Positions 17,954-28,655 of a stretch of 29,082 nucleotides of DNA are shown here, in pieces; position 1 is the stretch's first letter, and the number at the start of each line of letters is the position of its first letter. A program made the position numbers and the translations under genes. Origin of the DNA: a virus; the IMG/VR virus record IMGVR_UViG_3300046747_000312, positions 1 through 29,082 of that record, one strand, 5' to 3'. The notes beneath the pieces were generated by a model. The model was not told the origin of the DNA. It did no database searches and saw only the letters and a program-made list of their open reading frames with translations.

Positions 17954-17990
17954 TACCCGAGCCGCATCACGTTGCACCTCCCTGCACGCG
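17954..17990 (+). repeat. Left flanking copy of an imperfect direct repeat around the 12-bp array
   Basis: This stretch aligns with 18170-18199 as TACC(C)GAG, CGC, TCACGTT, then CCCTGC and CGCG, with one extra C and a six-base insertion (gcacct) on the left side and three substitutions. It runs into the first array unit at 17985. Intergenic, just after the last late gene. Role unknown. Confidence 0.5.
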
Positions 17991-18170
17991 GCCGTGCACG
18001 CGGACGCTCACGCGGACGTGCATGCGGTCGTGCACGCGGCCGTACACGCGGCCGTCCACGCGGACGCCCACGCGGACGCCCACGCGGCCGTACACGCGGT
18101 CGCCCACGCGGACGTACACGCGGCCGTCCACGCGGCCGTACACGCGGCCGTACACGCGGCCGTACACGCT
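17985..18170 (+). repeat. 12-bp tandem repeat array, 15.5 units
   Basis: Fifteen complete 12-base units and a 6-base remnant follow without spacer. The consensus is CACGCGGNCGYN; the most frequent unit is CACGCGGCCGTA. The CACGCGG core is invariant except for one CATGCGG (18021). Variation falls at positions 8, 11 and 12. Because the unit is a multiple of three, both strands stay open in several frames and give tetrapeptide-repeat ORFs, but the variable positions are not silent in either the HAAV or the YGRV frame, so selection appears to act on DNA rather than protein. It lies between the end of the rightward late block (17935) and the end of the leftward early operon (stop at 18169-18171). 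It may be an origin, a packaging or recombination site, or a transcription buffer. Confidence 0.9.
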
Positions 18171-18711
18171 ACCGAGTCGCGTCACGTTCCCTGCGCGCGA
18201 TTATCCATCGCTCATCCACTTCGCTCGTCACGTTCCAGGCAAATGGGATATCGTCGTCTTCCAGCGGTGGGGTCGGCGCGCTCGGCGCCGCAGTGGGCGC
18301 TCCGCGCAGGTAGGTCTCTGGCTTGTCGCTCGGCGGCTTAGCGGTGACCGCCTCGTGATTCCGTTGACCCACCCACTGCGCCGTGGGGCACGCCTGGCGG
18401 TACGCGATCCAGTAGTCCAGCGCCTTTACCATCTTGGCGTTGCTCTCGGCATACTTCGGATCGCTTGGCGGCTGCGCGCTGCGGTCGCGCCAGAAAATCA
18501 GGCCGCTCAGGTCCGTCTCCGAGGCGTATTGCACCATCCCGCCGGTGCGGAAAATCATCGTGTCGAAACGCGGCGCCCGGCCGTCACCGGCGCCCGTCGC
18601 GACTGGCGCGGGCGGACCGCTGATCGGAATGCTGCCACGCTCCTGGAGCAGTCCCCAAATTGCGGTGAGCTGCTCAGTTGTCGAAAGACGGATGAATTCG
18701 TCGCGCGTCAT
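18169..18711 (-). CDS. Hypothetical early protein with an internal SSB-like DDDIPF motif
   Basis: 180 residues, last gene of the leftward operon; its ATG overlaps the MazG-like stop (ATGA). The core (about 50-125) is a mixed globular domain (FDTMIFRTGGMVQYASETD, then GLIFWRD and YAESNAKMVKALDYWIAYRQ) of no recognised family. A Pro/Ala/Ser-rich linker (about 128-148) leads to L-E-D-D-D-I-P-F (DDDIPF at 152-157) followed by 23 more residues. DDDIPF is the sequence with which bacterial SSB proteins recruit partners, but there it is the extreme C-terminus. A disordered linker before the acidic motif is also SSB-like. Located beside the exonuclease-annealase fusion, it may be a recombination accessory. 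The stop codon touches the 12-bp array. Confidence 0.65.
   Translation of the reverse strand: MTRDEFIRLSTTEQLTAIWGLLQERGSIPISGPPAPVATGAGDGRAPRFDTMIFRTGGMVQYASETDLSGLIFWRDRSAQPPSDPKYAESNAKMVKALDYWIAYRQACPTAQWVGQRNHEAVTAKPPSDKPETYLRGAPTAAPSAPTPPLEDDDIPFAWNVTSEVDERWIIARRERDATR
18170..18199 (+). repeat. Right flanking copy of the imperfect direct repeat
   Basis: Partner of 17954-17990. It covers the stop codon and last codons of the leftward gene that ends at 18169, so it is partly coding on the minus strand. The two copies bracket the 12-bp array. Confidence 0.5.
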
Positions 18712-19061
18712 AGCCGGGCTCTCCCGTGCTTCACCGGTCGCGTCTTGTTGTATTCGTGCTTTTCGGTGACCGCGCGTTCGATATCGATCCCGTAGTACGC
18801 GCAGGCGTCGAGCACGCGGATGATAACGTCCGCAAACTCGCTCGGGATGCCCTCTGGCTTGCCCGCCCCGACGCCTCCGCTGTCACGTGGCGCGCTATAC
18901 CGTTCGTCGCTCGGGGCATGGCCATCTCGGAACTCTTCCACGGCCTCTGATAGCTCCGAATGCATTAGCGCGATCCTGTCCATGAAACTCGGTGGCTCAT
19001 CGTAAAATCCCTTGCTCTTCGCGTTTTCGTGAATGTCCGCAGCCATCTGGTTTAGGTTCAT
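18708..19061 (-). CDS. MazG-like nucleotide pyrophosphohydrolase
   Basis: 117 residues from an ATG preceded by GAGGAG and overlapping the upstream stop (ATGA). Family marks are the all-alpha NTP-PPase metal motifs: E36-x2-E39 (with E42/E43) in LMHSELSEAVEEFRDG, and E75-x2-D78 in EFADVIIRVLDACAYYGIDI, followed by the usual A-x3-K-x-x-Y-N-x-x-R-P end. The enzyme hydrolyses NTPs or dNTPs to monophosphates plus pyrophosphate. Phage MazG proteins are thought to adjust nucleotide pools or alarmone levels. A Gly/Pro-rich loop (about 55-70) separates the two halves, which is normal for this group. Confidence 0.85.
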   Translation of the reverse strand: MNLNQMAADIHENAKSKGFYDEPPSFMDRIALMHSELSEAVEEFRDGHAPSDERYSAPRDSGGVGAGKPEGIPSEFADVIIRVLDACAYYGIDIERAVTEKHEYNKTRPVKHGRARL

Positions 19062-19288
19062 TTGAGCTCCTCGAAAAGTTCGGTCTGATTCTTCGCTTCG
19101 TCCGTGTGCTTCAGCAACTCGATGAGCGATTCCCGGTCCTTCGGGCCGAGCTTCGCCACGCATTGCACGATGCGGCCCCGGTCGCTGGCGCGCAGCTCCG
19201 CCAGCGCTTGCTTTTCCCTCGCGGCCTGAGTCCCGAGGATCGCCCGTACCTTGTCGAGCGCCTGTCCTACGGTCAGAACGCGGCTCAT
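19058..19288 (-). CDS. Small helical hypothetical protein between exonuclease and MazG genes
   Basis: 76 residues; start overlaps the stop of the exonuclease-annealase gene and its stop overlaps the MazG ATG, so it is coupled on both sides. It is helical and charged (ALDKVRAILGTQAAREKQAL, then ESLIELLKHTDEAKNQTELF) with one Cys and no recognisable motif. It may be a structural partner of one of its neighbours. Function unknown. Confidence 0.65.
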   Translation of the reverse strand: MSRVLTVGQALDKVRAILGTQAAREKQALAELRASDRGRIVQCVAKLGPKDRESLIELLKHTDEAKNQTELFEELK

Positions 19289-20730
19289 TCTCCCGCCTCC
19301 GCCCCGAGCTCTTCGAGCGCGTACAACCCGAGCGCGGCACCCGGATACACGATGCGGCCGAGCTGCACCGCGCAGGTCTTCCGCAGCATTTCGTCCGGTC
19401 GTTTGTGCCAGTTTCCGGGCTCCTTCCCCGGCTTCGTCGCCAGCAGCCCGGCGCGCTCCGCCTGCTCGATGGTGTAGCGCAACTTGACCGGAGTCTCGTT
19501 CCCGCGCTGCTTCGTGTGGTACTCGGCAAAGGTGTTATCCCCCGCGATGTAGCGGAACCACTCGCAGTCCGGGTGCCGCGTCACCATCTCCGTGATGAGA
19601 TGCGCATGGAGCGCAGTCTTGCCGTCGAAATAGTGGATCACGTCGAGCGCCTGAATCGCGCCAAGCCCGATCGAGCGACCCCGCACGATGACCACGAGCG
19701 CGGCGTCCGGGTTCGAGATGCGCGGGTATAGCCGCGAATTCGCCACGGCAATCGCGAACGTCTGCGCCGATGCGAGCGTGCGCGGCTCCAGGGCCTGCGC
19801 CCATTCGACCGGCGCAAGCGCGAGCGCCGTGGACTTCGGCGCCTGCATGACGGGAGTCGCGACGGGCGCCTCCGCGCTCGGCTCGCTCTTCGGGGGCGGC
19901 AGAGAAATCGGATCGAATTCGCCGTCTTGAATCGCTGGTGTTGCTTCGCTCACTGGCTTTACCTCTCTCTTTTCGAACAGTTCTTCCCACCGGATCGGGC
20001 AGTCGCGCCGAAGCTCGATCACCTGTTTCGCGAGCCGCGCGGCCGCGGCACCCTGAAACACGTTCTCTTGCATCTTCGGTGTCGGAATCTTGTCGCAGTT
20101 GCCGAGCACTGCGTCCAGCGTGCCGCCGTACTCGGTAAGCAGCTTCGCGGCGTTCTTCTTACCCACTCCCGGGATGCCCGGAACGTTGTCCGAGGTATCA
20201 CCTTGGAGCGCCAGGGCGTCGAGTAGCATCTCGGGCGGCACGCCCCAGGTTTCGATAACGCCCGCACGATCGAAGGTCTTCTGTTTCGACGGCGAGAAAA
20301 CGCGAATGTCGTTCTCATCGTCCACGAGCTGGAGCAAATCCTTGTCCGAGCTCGCGATCGTAACGCTCATCCCGTCGCGCTTGGCGAACTCCACGGCCGT
20401 CGCGATGACGTCGTCGGCCTCCTCACCCGGCACGGACCAGAGGAGGTGTCCATCTGCGACCAGACGCTCCTTGACGCGGCGGAACTGGTCGAGCGCCGCC
20501 GCGGGCGGCGCATCACGCTGCGCCTTGTACGTGGGCAGCAGGGCCTTGCGGCGGGTGTAGGGCGAGGCGTCGCAGCAGATCGCAACGTGGTCGTACTCGT
20601 CGCACCGGAGGGCTCCGGGGGAAGCGACGGCAATCGCATATGCCTCGCCTCCGGTCGGGAGCGCTACGGTGGCGTGCCATGCGGCCCAGAAAATGCCGGA
20701 AATGTCGATTAATAGCAATGATTTTGACAT
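19285..20730 (-). CDS. Fused FEN-type 5'-3' exonuclease and RecT-like annealing protein
   Basis: 481 residues; GAGGAA precedes the ATG. Residues 1-about 240 match the 5' nuclease domain of DNA polymerase I: D9 in LLLIDISGIFWAAWHA, D54, the Arg/Lys/Tyr arch residues (RRKALLPTYKAQR, 60-72), E103/E104/D106/D107 in PGEEADD, D129 and D131 in SSDKDLLQLV, GDTSDN (D178, D181) and the H3TH loop GIPGVGKKNAAKLL (185-198). A Pro/Ala-rich linker (about 255-305) follows. Residues about 310-481 look like a RecT-family annealase: a GLGAIQALDVIHYFDGKTAL strand, then W-F-R-Y, a T-x-E-Q-A-x-R-A-G-L segment, W-H-K-R-P-x-E-M-L-R, and YPGAALGLYALEELG at the end, which is the conserved C-terminal half of phage RecT-like proteins. 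Together it would resect 5' ends and anneal the exposed strand. Confidence 0.8.
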   Translation of the reverse strand: MSKSLLLIDISGIFWAAWHATVALPTGGEAYAIAVASPGALRCDEYDHVAICCDASPYTRRKALLPTYKAQRDAPPAAALDQFRRVKERLVADGHLLWSVPGEEADDVIATAVEFAKRDGMSVTIASSDKDLLQLVDDENDIRVFSPSKQKTFDRAGVIETWGVPPEMLLDALALQGDTSDNVPGIPGVGKKNAAKLLTEYGGTLDAVLGNCDKIPTPKMQENVFQGAAAARLAKQVIELRRDCPIRWEELFEKREVKPVSEATPAIQDGEFDPISLPPPKSEPSAEAPVATPVMQAPKSTALALAPVEWAQALEPRTLASAQTFAIAVANSRLYPRISNPDAALVVIVRGRSIGLGAIQALDVIHYFDGKTALHAHLITEMVTRHPDCEWFRYIAGDNTFAEYHTKQRGNETPVKLRYTIEQAERAGLLATKPGKEPGNWHKRPDEMLRKTCAVQLGRIVYPGAALGLYALEELGAEAGE

Positions 20731-20736
20731 GGTTCC

Positions 20737-20907
20737 TCAGGAGTGGTTGCCAGCGAAACGAGCCCGATCCGCAATCGGAGAACCGAGCGAAATCCAGACA
20801 CGCGAGGTCAATTCAGACGTCACGCGCTGACCGACCCAAAAACCGACCACATTGGCGACGTACAAGGTCGACGCCTGGTATCTGACGGGGTCCCGCAGTC
20901 GTTTCAC
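20737..20907 (-). CDS. Possible 56-residue coupled ORF between repressor and exonuclease
   Basis: A GTG overlaps the repressor stop by four bases (GTGA), the same arrangement as most real junctions here, and the frame ends six bases before the exonuclease ATG. It fills the only sizeable gap in the operon. The product begins MKRLRDPVRYQASTLYVANV and has a hydrophobic middle and a basic/polar end. No family is recognised. The same frame stays open upstream through the repressor gene, which weakens the case a little. Confidence 0.4.
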   Translation of the reverse strand: MKRLRDPVRYQASTLYVANVVGFWVGQRVTSELTSRVWISLGSPIADRARFAGNHS

Positions 20908-22171: not shown

Positions 22172-23056
22172 ATGCTCGAAGCGTTGACCGCGGAACAAGA
22201 AGCTCTCCAGGACGTCGTGGCGGAGGAATATCTCGCGATTCTGGACAACCCCGGCACGTGTACGCGCGAAGGCGTGCGCCCGTGGCTGGAAGCGGTCTAC
22301 AAGATGTACGACAAGCCCTGCCCGGAGCGGATCGAAATCTGCGCTTCGCCGGCTACCGCGTTCGCGCTGGAAGAGCAGCTCACCGGCTCCACTGACCGAT
22401 TGCTCGATTGGCTCGGGCTGTCGGATGCGGGCTGGGTAGCGTTCTACGATTTTTGGCATCGCGCCGGGGTGCTCACGAACGAGGAGGCTGCGGAGGTGCT
22501 ATTGCTCCGCGACTACCTCAAACAGGCGTTTGACTCGGTGCTCCTGGACGAGTGCGCGCTCGTGATTGCGCTGCCTCGAGTGATGGCGCGCGACGATGAC
22601 GGGCAGCTTCATCATTCGACCGGGTTCGCCGTCGAGTGGCACGACGGGACCGGGCTCTGCTACTGGCACGGCACCGCGGTGCCGGATCGGCTGGTGTTCA
22701 ACCCGGAGAGCTACACGGCGGACGAGATCAAGAGCGAGACGAATACGGAGATCCGTCGCGCGCTCGGTGAAAAACTCGGCTGGGGGAAGGTTGCGGATAT
22801 TCTCGGCGCGAAGCCGCTCGACGCTTGGACCGACGACGCTACGGGGCTTCGGTACGAGCTCATGGGGTCCGACCCGGGGAAGTGGCTCAAGAAGCAGAGC
22901 CCGGCACTGCAGAATGGCGCGCAACCCGAATATGTGGAGCCCGTTCACGAAGAGCTGAAAACCGCGGCGGGAGCGCGGAAGTGGCAGGCGGTCCGCGGCG
23001 CGACGCCGAGCGACTGCGACAAGAACCCGACGCTCTCGTATGGGATCGAAACGTGA
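22172..23056 (+). CDS. DUF6745-like protein of unknown function
   Basis: 294 residues, GAGGAG ten bases before the ATG. The first 75 residues are helical (EQEALQDVVAEEYLAILDNP). The rest has features I associate with DUF6745: W-x-A-F-Y-D-F-W, then a D-E-C-A-L-V-I-A-L-P-R block, L-H-x-S-T-G-F-A-V-E-W-x-D-G, Y164-W-H-G-T-A-V-P, a 'P.s.Ta.EI..E.N.E.RR' stretch (N191-T-E-I-R-R), and a C-terminal beta region with repeated V-x-P (YVEPVHEELKTAAGARKWQA). Members occur in actinobacterial and proteobacterial genomes and mobile elements without known biochemical role. The pairing with the preceding QGDV-type protein suggests they act together. Confidence 0.65.
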   Translation: MLEALTAEQEALQDVVAEEYLAILDNPGTCTREGVRPWLEAVYKMYDKPCPERIEICASPATAFALEEQLTGSTDRLLDWLGLSDAGWVAFYDFWHRAGVLTNEEAAEVLLLRDYLKQAFDSVLLDECALVIALPRVMARDDDGQLHHSTGFAVEWHDGTGLCYWHGTAVPDRLVFNPESYTADEIKSETNTEIRRALGEKLGWGKVADILGAKPLDAWTDDATGLRYELMGSDPGKWLKKQSPALQNGAQPEYVEPVHEELKTAAGARKWQAVRGATPSDCDKNPTLSYGIET

Positions 23057-25620: not shown

Positions 25621-25742
25621 GGCCGCGCTGGGTCTGGTTGCTCCTCCCGCCACGGAACGCCCCCCCCCGACGCCCCGTGCGACTCTGGACCGGTGAGACC
25701 GGCACCGCGCCGCGATGGCGGCGGATCGTGACGTACCAATGA
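25617..25742 (+). CDS. Possible 41-residue coupled ORF upstream of the helicase
   Basis: A GTG overlapping the previous stop opens a frame whose own TGA is overlapped by the helicase ATG, so both junctions follow the local coupling rule. The product is Trp- and Arg-rich (RPRWVWLLLPPRNAPPRRPV). It contains a nine-C run (25660-25668), so its frame depends on that tract being right. The peptide has no recognisable fold and may serve mainly as a translational link to the helicase. Confidence 0.4.
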   Translation: MRPRWVWLLLPPRNAPPRRPVRLWTGETGTAPRWRRIVTYQ

Positions 25743-27190
25743 GCCAGACCCTCCGCGACTACCAGGCCCGTGGCTGCCGCCAGACGCGCGAGCACTGGGA
25801 CACGGGCCATCGCTCCGTGTGCTTCGTGTCGCCCACCGGTAGCGGCAAGACCACATGCGGCACCGAGTTCGTCGGGGGCTTCCGCCGCTCCGTCTGGGTA
25901 GCGCACCGCAAGGAGCTCATCGCGCAAGCCGTGGAGCGCCTGGAGCTCGCGGGGCACCGCGTTGGGGCCGTCTGCCCCGGGATGCGCGACGACGCCGCAG
26001 CGCCCGTCCAAGTGGGTACGATTCAGTCCTTCCTCGCGCGTGGACTCCGGCCAGACGCGGATCTCATGGTGTTCGACGAAGGGCACCATCACGTCCCCGC
26101 GTCCGAGTACTGGCACACGTTCGCCGGCGCCTACCAGCATGCGAAACAGGTGTTTCTAACCGCTACCCCTGAGCGTCGCGACGGCTCGCCGATGGGTGAC
26201 GTCTGCTCCGAGATGGTCGTTGCCGCGTCGTACTCCGAGCTGCTCGCGGCCGGTCACTTGGCGCCATGCGTCGTCTACGCCCCGCCTCGCGACAAGGCGT
26301 CCTCGGGCTGGGCGTGCGATCCGGTGCAGGCGTACCAGCAGTTCGCCCCCGGCACGATGGCCTTCGCGTTCTTCGATCGCGTCGCTCGTAGCACCGAATG
26401 GGAGCGCGCTTTCTGTCTCGCCGGGGTGAACGCGCGTACCATCGACGGCAAGACCAAGGACAAGGACCGGGACCGCTATCTCGAGGACTTCGCCGCCGGA
26501 CTCGTCCGCGTACTCTGCAACGTCGCGACCATGACCGAGGGCGTGGACATCCCCGCCGCCGCGACGTGTCTCCTCGCCCGATGCCCCGACCACGCGAGCA
26601 CATTCCTGCAGATGGTCGGGCGCGTGCTACGTCCGCATCCTAGCAAGCCGCACGCACTCCTGCTCGATCTGGTCGACGCAACCGCGCGCCACGGCTACCC
26701 CACGGAGGACCGTGAATATTCGCTCACCGGGAAGGCCATCCAGCGCGCGAGTAAGAGCGAGGTACGACGCTGCGCCGAGTGTATGGCAATGTACCCTAAC
26801 GGCCTCGCGGCCTGTCCGCTCTGCGGTTGGGTGCCGCCGAAGCCGCGCCCGGTCGAGGTGCGGATCTACGATGCCGGATTGCAGCGCGTCTACCAGGGCG
26901 CTGATACTGCGGACGAGCACAAACTCTCCGAGTATCGGCGCCTCCGGATGCTCGCGAAGCGCCAGGGATACGGACTGCAATTCGTGGTGAAGGAATACAA
27001 GAAACTTTTCGGAGTCGAGCCATCGCTCCGCGGCGTGCCGGAGCAGGACAAGCGAGCGGAATACGACGCGCTACGCGCCGTCCAGATCGCGAAAGGTCTC
27101 AAGCCGGGATTTGTTGGTGTAAGATACAAGGCCCTCTTCGGTGCGTGGCCCCCGCGAGAGTGGGCCCTCGCTCCGCTCCAACAGCGATGA
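25739..27190 (+). CDS. SF2 helicase with C-terminal zinc ribbon
   Basis: 483 residues from the ATG overlapping the previous stop; an in-frame ATG at 25715 is upstream but lacks coupling. Motifs in order: a Q-like R-D-Y8-Q9, Walker A P-T-G-S-G-K-T (32-38), VAHRKELIAQA (motif Ia), V-G-T-I-Q-S-F, Walker B D113-E-G-H116, T141-A-T-P-E-R, then in the second RecA domain TEGVDIPAA and Q291-M-V-G-R-V-L-R-P (motif VI arginine fingers R295, R298). A CxxC...CxxC ribbon follows (C345, C348, C359, C362). The C-terminal 100 residues contain two similar K-x-G-x-G/F-x-x-x-x-x-K-x-L-F-G segments. It probably unwinds DNA at phage replication forks or recombination intermediates. Confidence 0.85.
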   Translation: MSQTLRDYQARGCRQTREHWDTGHRSVCFVSPTGSGKTTCGTEFVGGFRRSVWVAHRKELIAQAVERLELAGHRVGAVCPGMRDDAAAPVQVGTIQSFLARGLRPDADLMVFDEGHHHVPASEYWHTFAGAYQHAKQVFLTATPERRDGSPMGDVCSEMVVAASYSELLAAGHLAPCVVYAPPRDKASSGWACDPVQAYQQFAPGTMAFAFFDRVARSTEWERAFCLAGVNARTIDGKTKDKDRDRYLEDFAAGLVRVLCNVATMTEGVDIPAAATCLLARCPDHASTFLQMVGRVLRPHPSKPHALLLDLVDATARHGYPTEDREYSLTGKAIQRASKSEVRRCAECMAMYPNGLAACPLCGWVPPKPRPVEVRIYDAGLQRVYQGADTADEHKLSEYRRLRMLAKRQGYGLQFVVKEYKKLFGVEPSLRGVPEQDKRAEYDALRAVQIAKGLKPGFVGVRYKALFGAWPPREWALAPLQQR

Positions 27191-27351
27191 CTCAGCACTG
27201 GCAACCGCAGCTAGCGATCCGCATTCCGCGGAGTCGTTTCGCGTTCAATTGTTATTGGTGCGGCGTACTCTTCCGCGCTGGCGTCCGCGCCTGGTGGTAT
27301 CGACTCGATAAGCTCATGTCCTGCGACGAATGCCACCGGGACACCCGATGA
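27187..27351 (+). CDS. Small two-CxxC zinc-finger protein
   Basis: 54 residues; ATG overlaps the helicase stop and its stop overlaps the ATG of the ATPase gene (ATGA both). C-Y-W-C (about residue 22) and C-D-E-C-H (about residue 46) give a single four-Cys zinc finger separated by a basic aromatic segment (VRAWWYRLDKLM). It lies between helicase and primase-like ATPase and may be a small DNA-binding adaptor. No family recognised. Confidence 0.6.
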   Translation: MTQHWQPQLAIRIPRSRFAFNCYWCGVLFRAGVRAWWYRLDKLMSCDECHRDTR

Positions 27352-28655
27352 GCGCAGCACGCGAGCCCGGGGACGACCGAGAAGAGCCACCGACGAACGT
27401 CGTCGAGCTTGAGCCATGGAAACGCGGCCTCGTCTACGGACGCGATGACAAGAACGGAGAGCCACGGCTCACGGCCTGCGTCGGAAACGTTGCGCTGATT
27501 CTCACGCACGACGTCGCGTTCCGCGGATGCTTCGCCTTCAACGACCTTTCTAGGAAGACGCTCCTCGTCAAGAAGCTCCCGAAGATGGTCGGCTTCGCAT
27601 CACCCAAGCGCGGCCCGGTCGATACCTACATTCGCGACGTCACGATCGCGGCGCTCGCGAGCATGAACAAGCTCACCGCGAGCAAGGATCTGGTATCTGA
27701 CGGCATAGAACTCGCCGCGCGTCAACAGCGTTTCAATCCCATGCGCGACCATCTCGAGGGCCTGAAGTGGGACGGAGTGCGACGTCTGGATCGGTGGCTG
27801 AGCACATATCTGGGTGTCAGCGCAACAGAATATGCTGCCTCCGTGGGCGCGTGGTGGCTCATCTCGATGGTCGCGCGCATCTACGAGCCCGGCTGTCAAG
27901 CGGACCACGTACTCGTGCTCGAGGGGCCGCAGGGCGCCGCGAAGTCGAGCGCGCTCCGGGTACTTGCGGGCGCGGACTATTTCACCGACCAGCTCCCGGA
28001 CCTCGGCTCGAAGGACTGCCAACAGCAACTCCTTGGCATGACGTGCATCGAACTCGGCGAAATGGACGCGCTCTCCCGCCACGAGGTCACGCGGATCAAG
28101 GCGTTCCTCACCGTCCGCTCGGACCGCTACCGGCCGCCATTCGAACGCTACGTCGTCGACATTCCACGAACGTGCGTCTTCGCCGGCAGCACGAACAAGC
28201 CCGGATACCTCCGCGACGACACCGGCAACCGCCGCTTCTGGCCCGTCCGCGTCGGAGCCATCGACCTGGACGCGCTCCGTCGCGACCGAGACCAGCTCCT
28301 AGCCGAGGCCCGGTGCGCCTACGAAAGCGGCGCCCACTGGTGGCCGGACCCGAAGTCCGTGGAGCTGGCGGCGGCCATCGAGGACGAGCAGGACCAGCGC
28401 TACATCGGCGACGAGTGGGAAGCGAAGATCGCCGCGTGGCTCGAGGGCCACGGAACCGGGCTGCCGTGCGACCCTCGCGATGCCGTCACGGTGGGCGATA
28501 TCCTCGCCGGTCTGGGCATCGCTCCCGAGGACTGGAGCCTCCAGGCCCAGCAGCGTATCGGCGCCGTCATGGGGCGCCTAGGGTGGGTCTGCGGGCGGTC
28601 CCGGGAGCACGGGGTCAGAGTTCGACGGTATCGGCGACCGAATTCTGGCCCGTAA
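27348..28655 (+). CDS. VirE/VapE-family P-loop ATPase (replication, primase-helicase type)
   Basis: 435 residues from the ATG overlapping the previous stop. Family marks: F-N-P-M-R-D-H-L-E-G-L-K-W-D-G-V-R-R-L-D (about 126-145), Y-x-x-S-V-G-A-W-W-L-I-S-M-V-A-R-I-Y-E-P-G, D-H-V-L-V-L-E-G-P-Q-G-A-A-K-S-S with Walker A at 193-200, L-G-S-K-D, Walker B-like C-I-E-L-G-E238-M-D, R-I-K-A-F-L-T-V-R-S-D-R-Y-R, C-V-F-A-G-S-T-N, and T-G-N-R-R-F-W-P-V. This is the PF05272-type core. Family members act as phage or satellite replication helicases/primases. The N-terminal 115 residues lack a full archaeo-eukaryotic primase motif, so a separate primase may be needed. The stop codon lies inside the terminator stem. 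Confidence 0.85.
   Translation: MSAAREPGDDREEPPTNVVELEPWKRGLVYGRDDKNGEPRLTACVGNVALILTHDVAFRGCFAFNDLSRKTLLVKKLPKMVGFASPKRGPVDTYIRDVTIAALASMNKLTASKDLVSDGIELAARQQRFNPMRDHLEGLKWDGVRRLDRWLSTYLGVSATEYAASVGAWWLISMVARIYEPGCQADHVLVLEGPQGAAKSSALRVLAGADYFTDQLPDLGSKDCQQQLLGMTCIELGEMDALSRHEVTRIKAFLTVRSDRYRPPFERYVVDIPRTCVFAGSTNKPGYLRDDTGNRRFWPVRVGAIDLDALRRDRDQLLAEARCAYESGAHWWPDPKSVELAAAIEDEQDQRYIGDEWEAKIAAWLEGHGTGLPCDPRDAVTVGDILAGLGIAPEDWSLQAQQRIGAVMGRLGWVCGRSREHGVRVRRYRRPNSGP

Follow-up and report, generated by a model that had tools for sequence, protein, structure and literature searches.

Gene Content and Organization of the Locus

The window, i.e., the whole 29,082-nt stretch of DNA that was analysed (positions 1 to 29,082 of the virus record IMGVR_UViG_3300046747_000312), contains on its minus strand a gene (19285..20730) encoding a 481-aa protein in which a FEN-type 5' nuclease is fused to a RecT core. 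The open reading frame starts with ATG, has no internal stop codons, and is preceded by a Shine-Dalgarno-like GAGGA (20734..20738, minus strand). Three parts were distinguished on the same strand. Residues 1-250 (19981..20730) correspond to a FEN/Pol I-type 5' nuclease with an H3TH motif according to Pfam, alignment to the Taq and M. smegmatis Pol I enzymes, conservation, and fold. Residues 251-311 (19798..19980) form a Pro/Ala/Glu-rich linker, mostly disordered in the predicted model, and residues 312-481 (19288..19797) form a RecT/Redβ annealase core without a C-terminal tail, as indicated by profiles, the predicted fold, and conservation.

The Pfam models 5_3_exonuc_N (97.2 bits, residues 5-163) and 5_3_exonuc (84.9 bits, residues 164-248) both exceeded their curated cut-offs, and RecT matched residues 409-477 with 26.9 bits against a cut-off of 24. 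The PHROGs search assigned an exonuclease (E 4.1e-32) and a RecT-like annealing protein (E 4.6e-8, residues 318-474) to the same protein. The AlphaFold2 model of the whole fusion had a mean pLDDT of 88.4, with 345 of 481 residues at 90 or above and linker residues 263-288 and 293-304 below 50. A preliminary description had proposed a single polypeptide joining a FEN-type nuclease to a RecT-like annealase through a Pro/Ala linker and had named two RecT sequence marks in its C-terminal part. This observation is confirmed: the coordinates, the open frame, Pfam, and PHROGs agree on one polypeptide, and the identity of both halves was borne out by profiles, by comparison of profiles with solved structures, and by the predicted folds. 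Both marks fall inside the Pfam RecT match. The absence of any RecT match in the C-terminal part would have refuted the proposal; such a match was returned by both Pfam and PHROGs.

Downstream of the fusion gene, a 76-aa ORF without a PHROG match (19058..19288, minus strand) begins with an ATG overlapping the fusion TGA (ATGA), from which it is inferred that the two are likely translationally coupled. It is followed on the same strand by a gene for a MazG-like pyrophosphatase (18708..19058; PHROG 3301, 'pyrophosphatase') and by a 180-aa ORF of unknown function (18169..18711) overlapping the stop codon of the MazG-like gene. The opposite strand encodes a DUF6745 protein (22172-23056), an SF2 helicase (25715-27190), and a VapE-like primase/helicase (27330-28655). 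Ala/His/Asp, Arg/Gly, and Thr/Arg/Pro repeats were noted in three frames of positions 17990-18170; judging from its sequence, this region between the endolysin gene and the fusion operon looks like short units of DNA repeated in tandem. Among the related loci described below, a small protein family (median of about 148 aa by crude gene calling) was located directly after the fusion in 20 of 78 cases, and an SSB family in six; the single scanned member of the small family had no Pfam match.

Distribution of the Fusion Family

Profile HMMs of the two halves identified at least 102 loci with both halves in one open frame. After 24 loci were dropped as repeats of a contig already counted, these represented at least 78 distinct contigs from at least 67 samples or assemblies, forming at least 70 clusters at 95% identity, 52 at 70%, and 25 at 50%. 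The search patterns for members were derived from either the fusion itself or its halves, and the 78 contigs were selected for holding both halves; the single frame in 78 of 78 is thus a statement of architecture, not of frequency. Scans with the single fusion protein detected no relative beyond a near-identical contig. A scan based on an FEN alignment, of which the best 80 of at least 442 relatives were used, revealed, besides this near-twin, loci with 29–55% identity over almost the full length of the fusion. A six-RecT profile was too divergent for scanning and was replaced by a three-sequence RecT profile (best 80 of at least 521 relatives used); two further scans contributed the best 80 of 150 relatives and all 16, respectively.

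The near-twin contig (38.6 kb), which is counted among the 78, differs from the window by one mismatch in 17,443 bp and has an identical junction. Its further part encodes a terminase large subunit (E 6.2e-24) and shows a weak portal match (E 9.7e-05), and therefore the source of the fusion is most likely a tailed phage. A scan of genome contigs yielded at least 68 candidate stretches, among which two were relatives. One of these two is a fusion, also counted among the 78, on a Thermoanaerobaculia MAG contig of 3.8 kb. Because the scan relied on two peptide patterns, both from one subgroup, these numbers are a lower bound. None of 50,697 phage records (three queries) or 72,556 plasmid records (one query) was covered to 80% or more by a fusion. 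Fusion-gene pieces were found at both ends of one 58-kb contig (3300046739_000338; L209 and L232); this record may represent a circular map that was opened within the fusion gene.

Nuclease Half

Nine acidic residues of the FEN half (D9, D54, E104, D106, D107, D129, D131, D178, and D181) align with those of Taq polymerase. In the alignment of 78 fusions, all nine were kept in each of the 76 proteins covering these sites, while R61, K69, and R72 were kept in 77 of 77. The acidic metal-binding residues of FEN enzymes have a catalytic role. Both FEN Pfam models were detected at E 1e-3 in all 30 fusion members scanned. Comparison with solved folds gave Z scores of 29.6 for a plastid exonuclease, 29.0 for E. 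coli ExoIX, 27.1 for the M. smegmatis flap endonuclease, and 26.6 for the T5 5'-exonuclease. That the metal-binding residues and the H3TH are visible in the nuclease, as described previously, agrees with conservation, Pfam, and fold alike. Judged by its residues, the FEN half looks catalytically intact; its activity is inferred.

Annealase Half and the Missing C-Terminal Tail

The RecT domain was folded and searched separately because the PDB list of the whole model was filled by FEN folds. Modelled alone, it reached a mean pLDDT of 91.1 and a pTM of 0.81. The sole Foldseek match in the PDB at E ≤ 0.001 was Redβ (7ujl, E 1.8e-5), which VIA-align superimposed with a Z of 9.6 over 131 residues (rmsd 3.0). 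LiRecT, the RecT of Listeria phage A118, was next with a Z of 6.7, and RAD52, with a Z of 5.3, did not rise above unrelated dsRNA-binding folds at 5.2. A single-sequence search with the C-terminal half alone gave no solved structure. Profiles matched 7ujl with an E of 6.8e-7 when built from 25 fusions and two stand-alone RecTs and 1.3e-5 when built from 30 fusions only. The RecT match of the window protein barely exceeds the Pfam cut-off, and 18 of 30 scanned fusion members matched this family at E 1e-3, the other 12 falling short.

Counted along the profile alignment to 7ujl, W441 and R459 of the fusion correspond to W143 and R161 of Redβ. The former is W in 73 of 76 fusions and Y in three; the latter is R in 76 of 76. 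For Redβ, W143 is described as almost universally conserved, annealing in vivo is reported to drop 1000-fold in connection with mutation of R161, both residues are described as important for annealing and DNA contact, and K148 and K154 are listed among the critical lysines (PMC9512822). The counterpart of K148, residue 446, is not kept (A in 36 of 78 fusions, K in four, D in the window), and at residue 452, the counterpart of K154, 53 of the 78 carry R and 17 carry T; the window has T as well. Residues 450 and 451 are basic in the window; position 450 is V in 41 of 78 and position 451 is A in 42 of 78. The lysine comparison covers K148 and K154, which have not been shown to be family-defining. 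As far as profiles and the predicted model can tell, the annealase half is a Redβ-like core comprising about residues 312-476, for which annealing and oligomer formation are inferred.

Three of the 78 fusions are cut at the 3' end by the contig and two at the 5' end. In all 75 whose stop codon is visible, the chain stops 0-13 aa past the annealase profile match, whereas the same profile gave a median tail of 120 aa for 102 stand-alone RecT ORFs. The shortest stand-alone tail (1 aa, L047) results from a profile match stretched through a Pro-rich tail, and the next shortest are 45 and 49 aa. The initial set of 106 ORFs also included L221, L226, L232, and L233, RecT fragments at contig ends that are fusion parts by their sequence; with these four, which were then left out, the median was 119. 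In Redβ, the C-terminal domain takes part in exonuclease binding and has a second, unexplained role besides it (PMC5052646).

Partner Nucleases and Genome Context

For the Pfam comparison, 25 contigs with a fusion and 25 with a stand-alone RecT were picked by hand, most of them long. YqaJ, PDDEXK_1, and DUF3799 exceeded the cut-off in six, six, and one of the stand-alone RecT contigs, respectively, and in none of the fusion contigs; taken together, the three families were detected in 13 of 25 versus 0 of 25 (Fisher p 3e-5). One fusion contig had a PDDEXK_1 match below the cut-off (15.1 bits). This distribution is as expected if the FEN half replaces these nucleases. However, absence by profile is weak evidence because 12 of the 25 stand-alone RecT contigs lack all three families as well, and the sampled contigs may be fragments. 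The FEN model was found in all 25 fusion contigs, once each, in a frame of 463–670 residues, versus one of the 25 stand-alone RecT contigs. The earlier statement that the nuclease is not of the λ/YqaJ type was correct. A survey of Firmicutes annealases lists YqaJ, DUF3799, and DUF1351 beside recT, and a term search for 'fusion' and 'fused' in its available text returned nothing (PMC8093625).

Family-A polymerase was not found in any of 26 records, and a polA fragment was rejected on this count. SSB genes accompanied fusions (4 of 26 records) no more often than stand-alone RecTs (5 of 24), and the SSB neighbourhood was discarded as a distinguishing mark.

Origin and Selection

The phylogenetic trees were built from rows passing bit-score and length thresholds and thinned at 65% identity for FEN (130 to 82 rows) and 60% for RecT (186 to 55 rows). 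In the RecT tree, all 27 fusion rows lay on one side of a branch with an SH-aLRT of 95. The same was observed for all 45 fusion rows of the FEN tree (SH-aLRT 93) after exclusion of four long branches and of L048, an ORF truncated at the end of its contig. With these rows kept, two label changes were counted, and L048 was the only stand-alone row on the fusion side. A single origin of the fusion is consistent with these trees. Pairwise FEN and RecT distances among 75 proteins were correlated (r 0.73, versus a maximum of 0.25 in 1000 shuffles).

At two loci, L042 and L047, a gene that is RecT-like by profile precedes a FEN gene of its own, which is the reverse of the fusion order. The FENs of both and the RecT of L047 were placed outside the fusion clades; the L042 RecT scored 32 bits, too low for tree placement. 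From this, the association of FEN with RecT seems to have arisen more than once, and the fusion perhaps only once.

In both halves, dN was lower than dS in 26 of 26 close pairs, which share members, and the linker was freer than the halves in most of them. The ratios are rough since many dS values were near or above 1. In the pairs L211/L212 and L199/L200, the FEN halves were much closer than the RecT halves (dS 0.22 vs. 2.2 and 0.19 vs. 0.64, respectively), as if phages swapped halves through the linker.

Proposed Function and Alternative Explanations

The fusion is probably a recombinase of a tailed phage that combines exonuclease and annealase in one chain; its activity is inferred. At DNA ends, nicks, or flaps, the N-terminal FEN half would remove the strand with the 5' end. 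The RecT/Redβ core, tethered by the flexible linker, would bind the 3' strand upon exposure, oligomerise, and anneal it to its complement. That the annealase is loaded while the strand is being exposed, as proposed in the preliminary description, remains an inference; that interpretation as a whole is supported. The large conserved family and the lack of a C-terminal tail on the annealase go beyond that description. The covalent tether may take the place of the exonuclease-docking C-terminal domain of Redβ, which might explain why the tail is missing. Since the Redβ tail both binds the exonuclease and has a second role, replacement of the docking domain by a tether fits the data and is still unproven, and loss of the tail might cost activity because this domain is needed beyond exonuclease binding (PMC5052646). 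We lean only slightly towards the fuller interpretation, namely that the protein is a complete SynExo machine in one chain and a distinct recombinase class, with an FEN in place of a PDDEXK nuclease, a linker in place of a docking domain, and resection and loading coupled 1:1.

The main rival explanation places the protein at the replication fork, where RNA primers or 5' flaps would be removed by the FEN half while the fork strands were held or annealed by the RecT core, end resection not being the main job. The nearest FEN folds include the M. smegmatis flap endonuclease, the T5 FEN, and T4 RNase H, which have flap- or primer-removing roles; the window encodes an SF2 helicase and a VapE-like primase/helicase, and no family-A polymerase that could bring its own 5' nuclease was found in the 26 records. 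However, hosts possess Pol I for primer removal, and the lack of all three PDDEXK families above the cut-off in the 25 fusion contigs is as expected if the FEN half replaces these nucleases, so we regard this role as unlikely, though worth keeping in view. It is still less likely that the RecT core has ceased to anneal and serves merely to direct the nuclease to branched or single-stranded DNA. The unconserved counterparts of K148 and K154 in the window, the variability of residues 446, 450, and 451 in the family, and the absent tail would be consistent with such a loss, but R459 is invariant and W441 nearly so, at positions whose Redβ equivalents are important for annealing and DNA contact (PMC9512822), and dN of the RecT half is well below dS in every close pair.

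The remaining explanations deny that one chain is made. Internal initiation or linker cleavage could yield two proteins of an ordinary two-chain system: in 53 of the 75 genes, an in-frame ATG is present between codons -25 and +8 relative to the start of RecT, and the linker is predicted to be disordered in the window protein. A Shine-Dalgarno-like site, however, precedes such an ATG or GTG in only 11 of 75 genes, compared with 48 of 75 at the chosen FEN start, and the near-twin of the window is not among these 11. Separate genes by internal start were rejected on these counts, and the two-protein reading as a whole is very improbable. An assembly or frame artefact joining two neighbouring genes could be imagined for a virus record of unknown completeness such as the window, but it is practically excluded: the halves share one frame on at least 78 distinct contigs in at least 52 clusters at 70% identity, and both are constrained, which refutes an artefact for the family. 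The concern raised earlier that resequencing might show a stop or frameshift at the junction is answered, without resequencing, by the same open frame in many other contigs. The one-chain recombinase is retained as the preferred explanation.

Significance and Comparison with Known Systems

The best match of the whole fusion model in BFVD was UniProt A0A6J5MUB0, a 462-aa 'PIN_53EXO domain containing protein' from an uncultured Caudovirales phage; the alignment spans 484 columns at 33% identity (E 3.4e-40). On the strength of this model comparison, it is evidently a deposited member of the fusion family. It is named by its nuclease half only, and the annealase is therefore hidden. No natural FEN–RecT fusion was found among the papers listed by full-text literature searches, as judged mainly from titles and abstract openings; most subscription journals and bioRxiv preprints were outside their scope, so the fusion has possibly been described elsewhere. 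SynExo itself is already known, and the fusion is a new variant of it.

T5 exonuclease is used in chew-back assembly reactions; if the proposed function is true, the fusion would be a natural one-protein chew-back-and-anneal enzyme, and it could be tried as a single-gene recombineering tool. It also predicts what the missing Redβ tail does. In λ Red, Exo and Redβ bind 1:1 (PMC9512822), their binding is weak, with a KD of 7.9 µM (PMC5052646), and how a trimer and a dodecamer make a 1:1 complex is unsolved (PMC9512822). The fusion fixes the nuclease-to-annealase ratio at 1:1 by construction, and the hand-over of the strand from exonuclease to annealase, open for λ Red, becomes testable on one natural protein.

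In its fold and acidic residues, the N-terminal half resembles the T5 5'-exonuclease (FEN), ExoIX/Xni, and the 5' nuclease domain of Pol I; unlike in Pol I, no DNA polymerase domain follows the nuclease. We know of none of these nucleases joined to an annealase. A related arrangement is that of L042 and L047, which also combine a RecT-like protein with a nearby FEN gene in one viral contig but keep them as separate genes, with RecT first and carrying a tail. Like the RecE/RecT and YqaJ/RecT modules, the fusion unites a RecT family annealase with a dedicated nuclease; it differs from them in nuclease type and in being covalent, and the stand-alone RecTs measured here carry long C-terminal tails. 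With λ Red (Redα and Redβ), it shares the pairing of a 5'-3' exonuclease with a Redβ-fold annealase, its RecT half matching the N-terminal domain of Redβ by profile and predicted fold, whereas it is one chain, its nuclease is of the FEN type and not a λ exonuclease, and the C-terminal domain is lacking. In contrast to the two-chain SynExo systems (λ Red and RecET), nuclease and annealase share one frame on all 78 contigs, which were selected for both halves, with no PDDEXK-type partner above the cut-off in the 25 fusion contigs sampled and no exonuclease-binding C-terminal domain.
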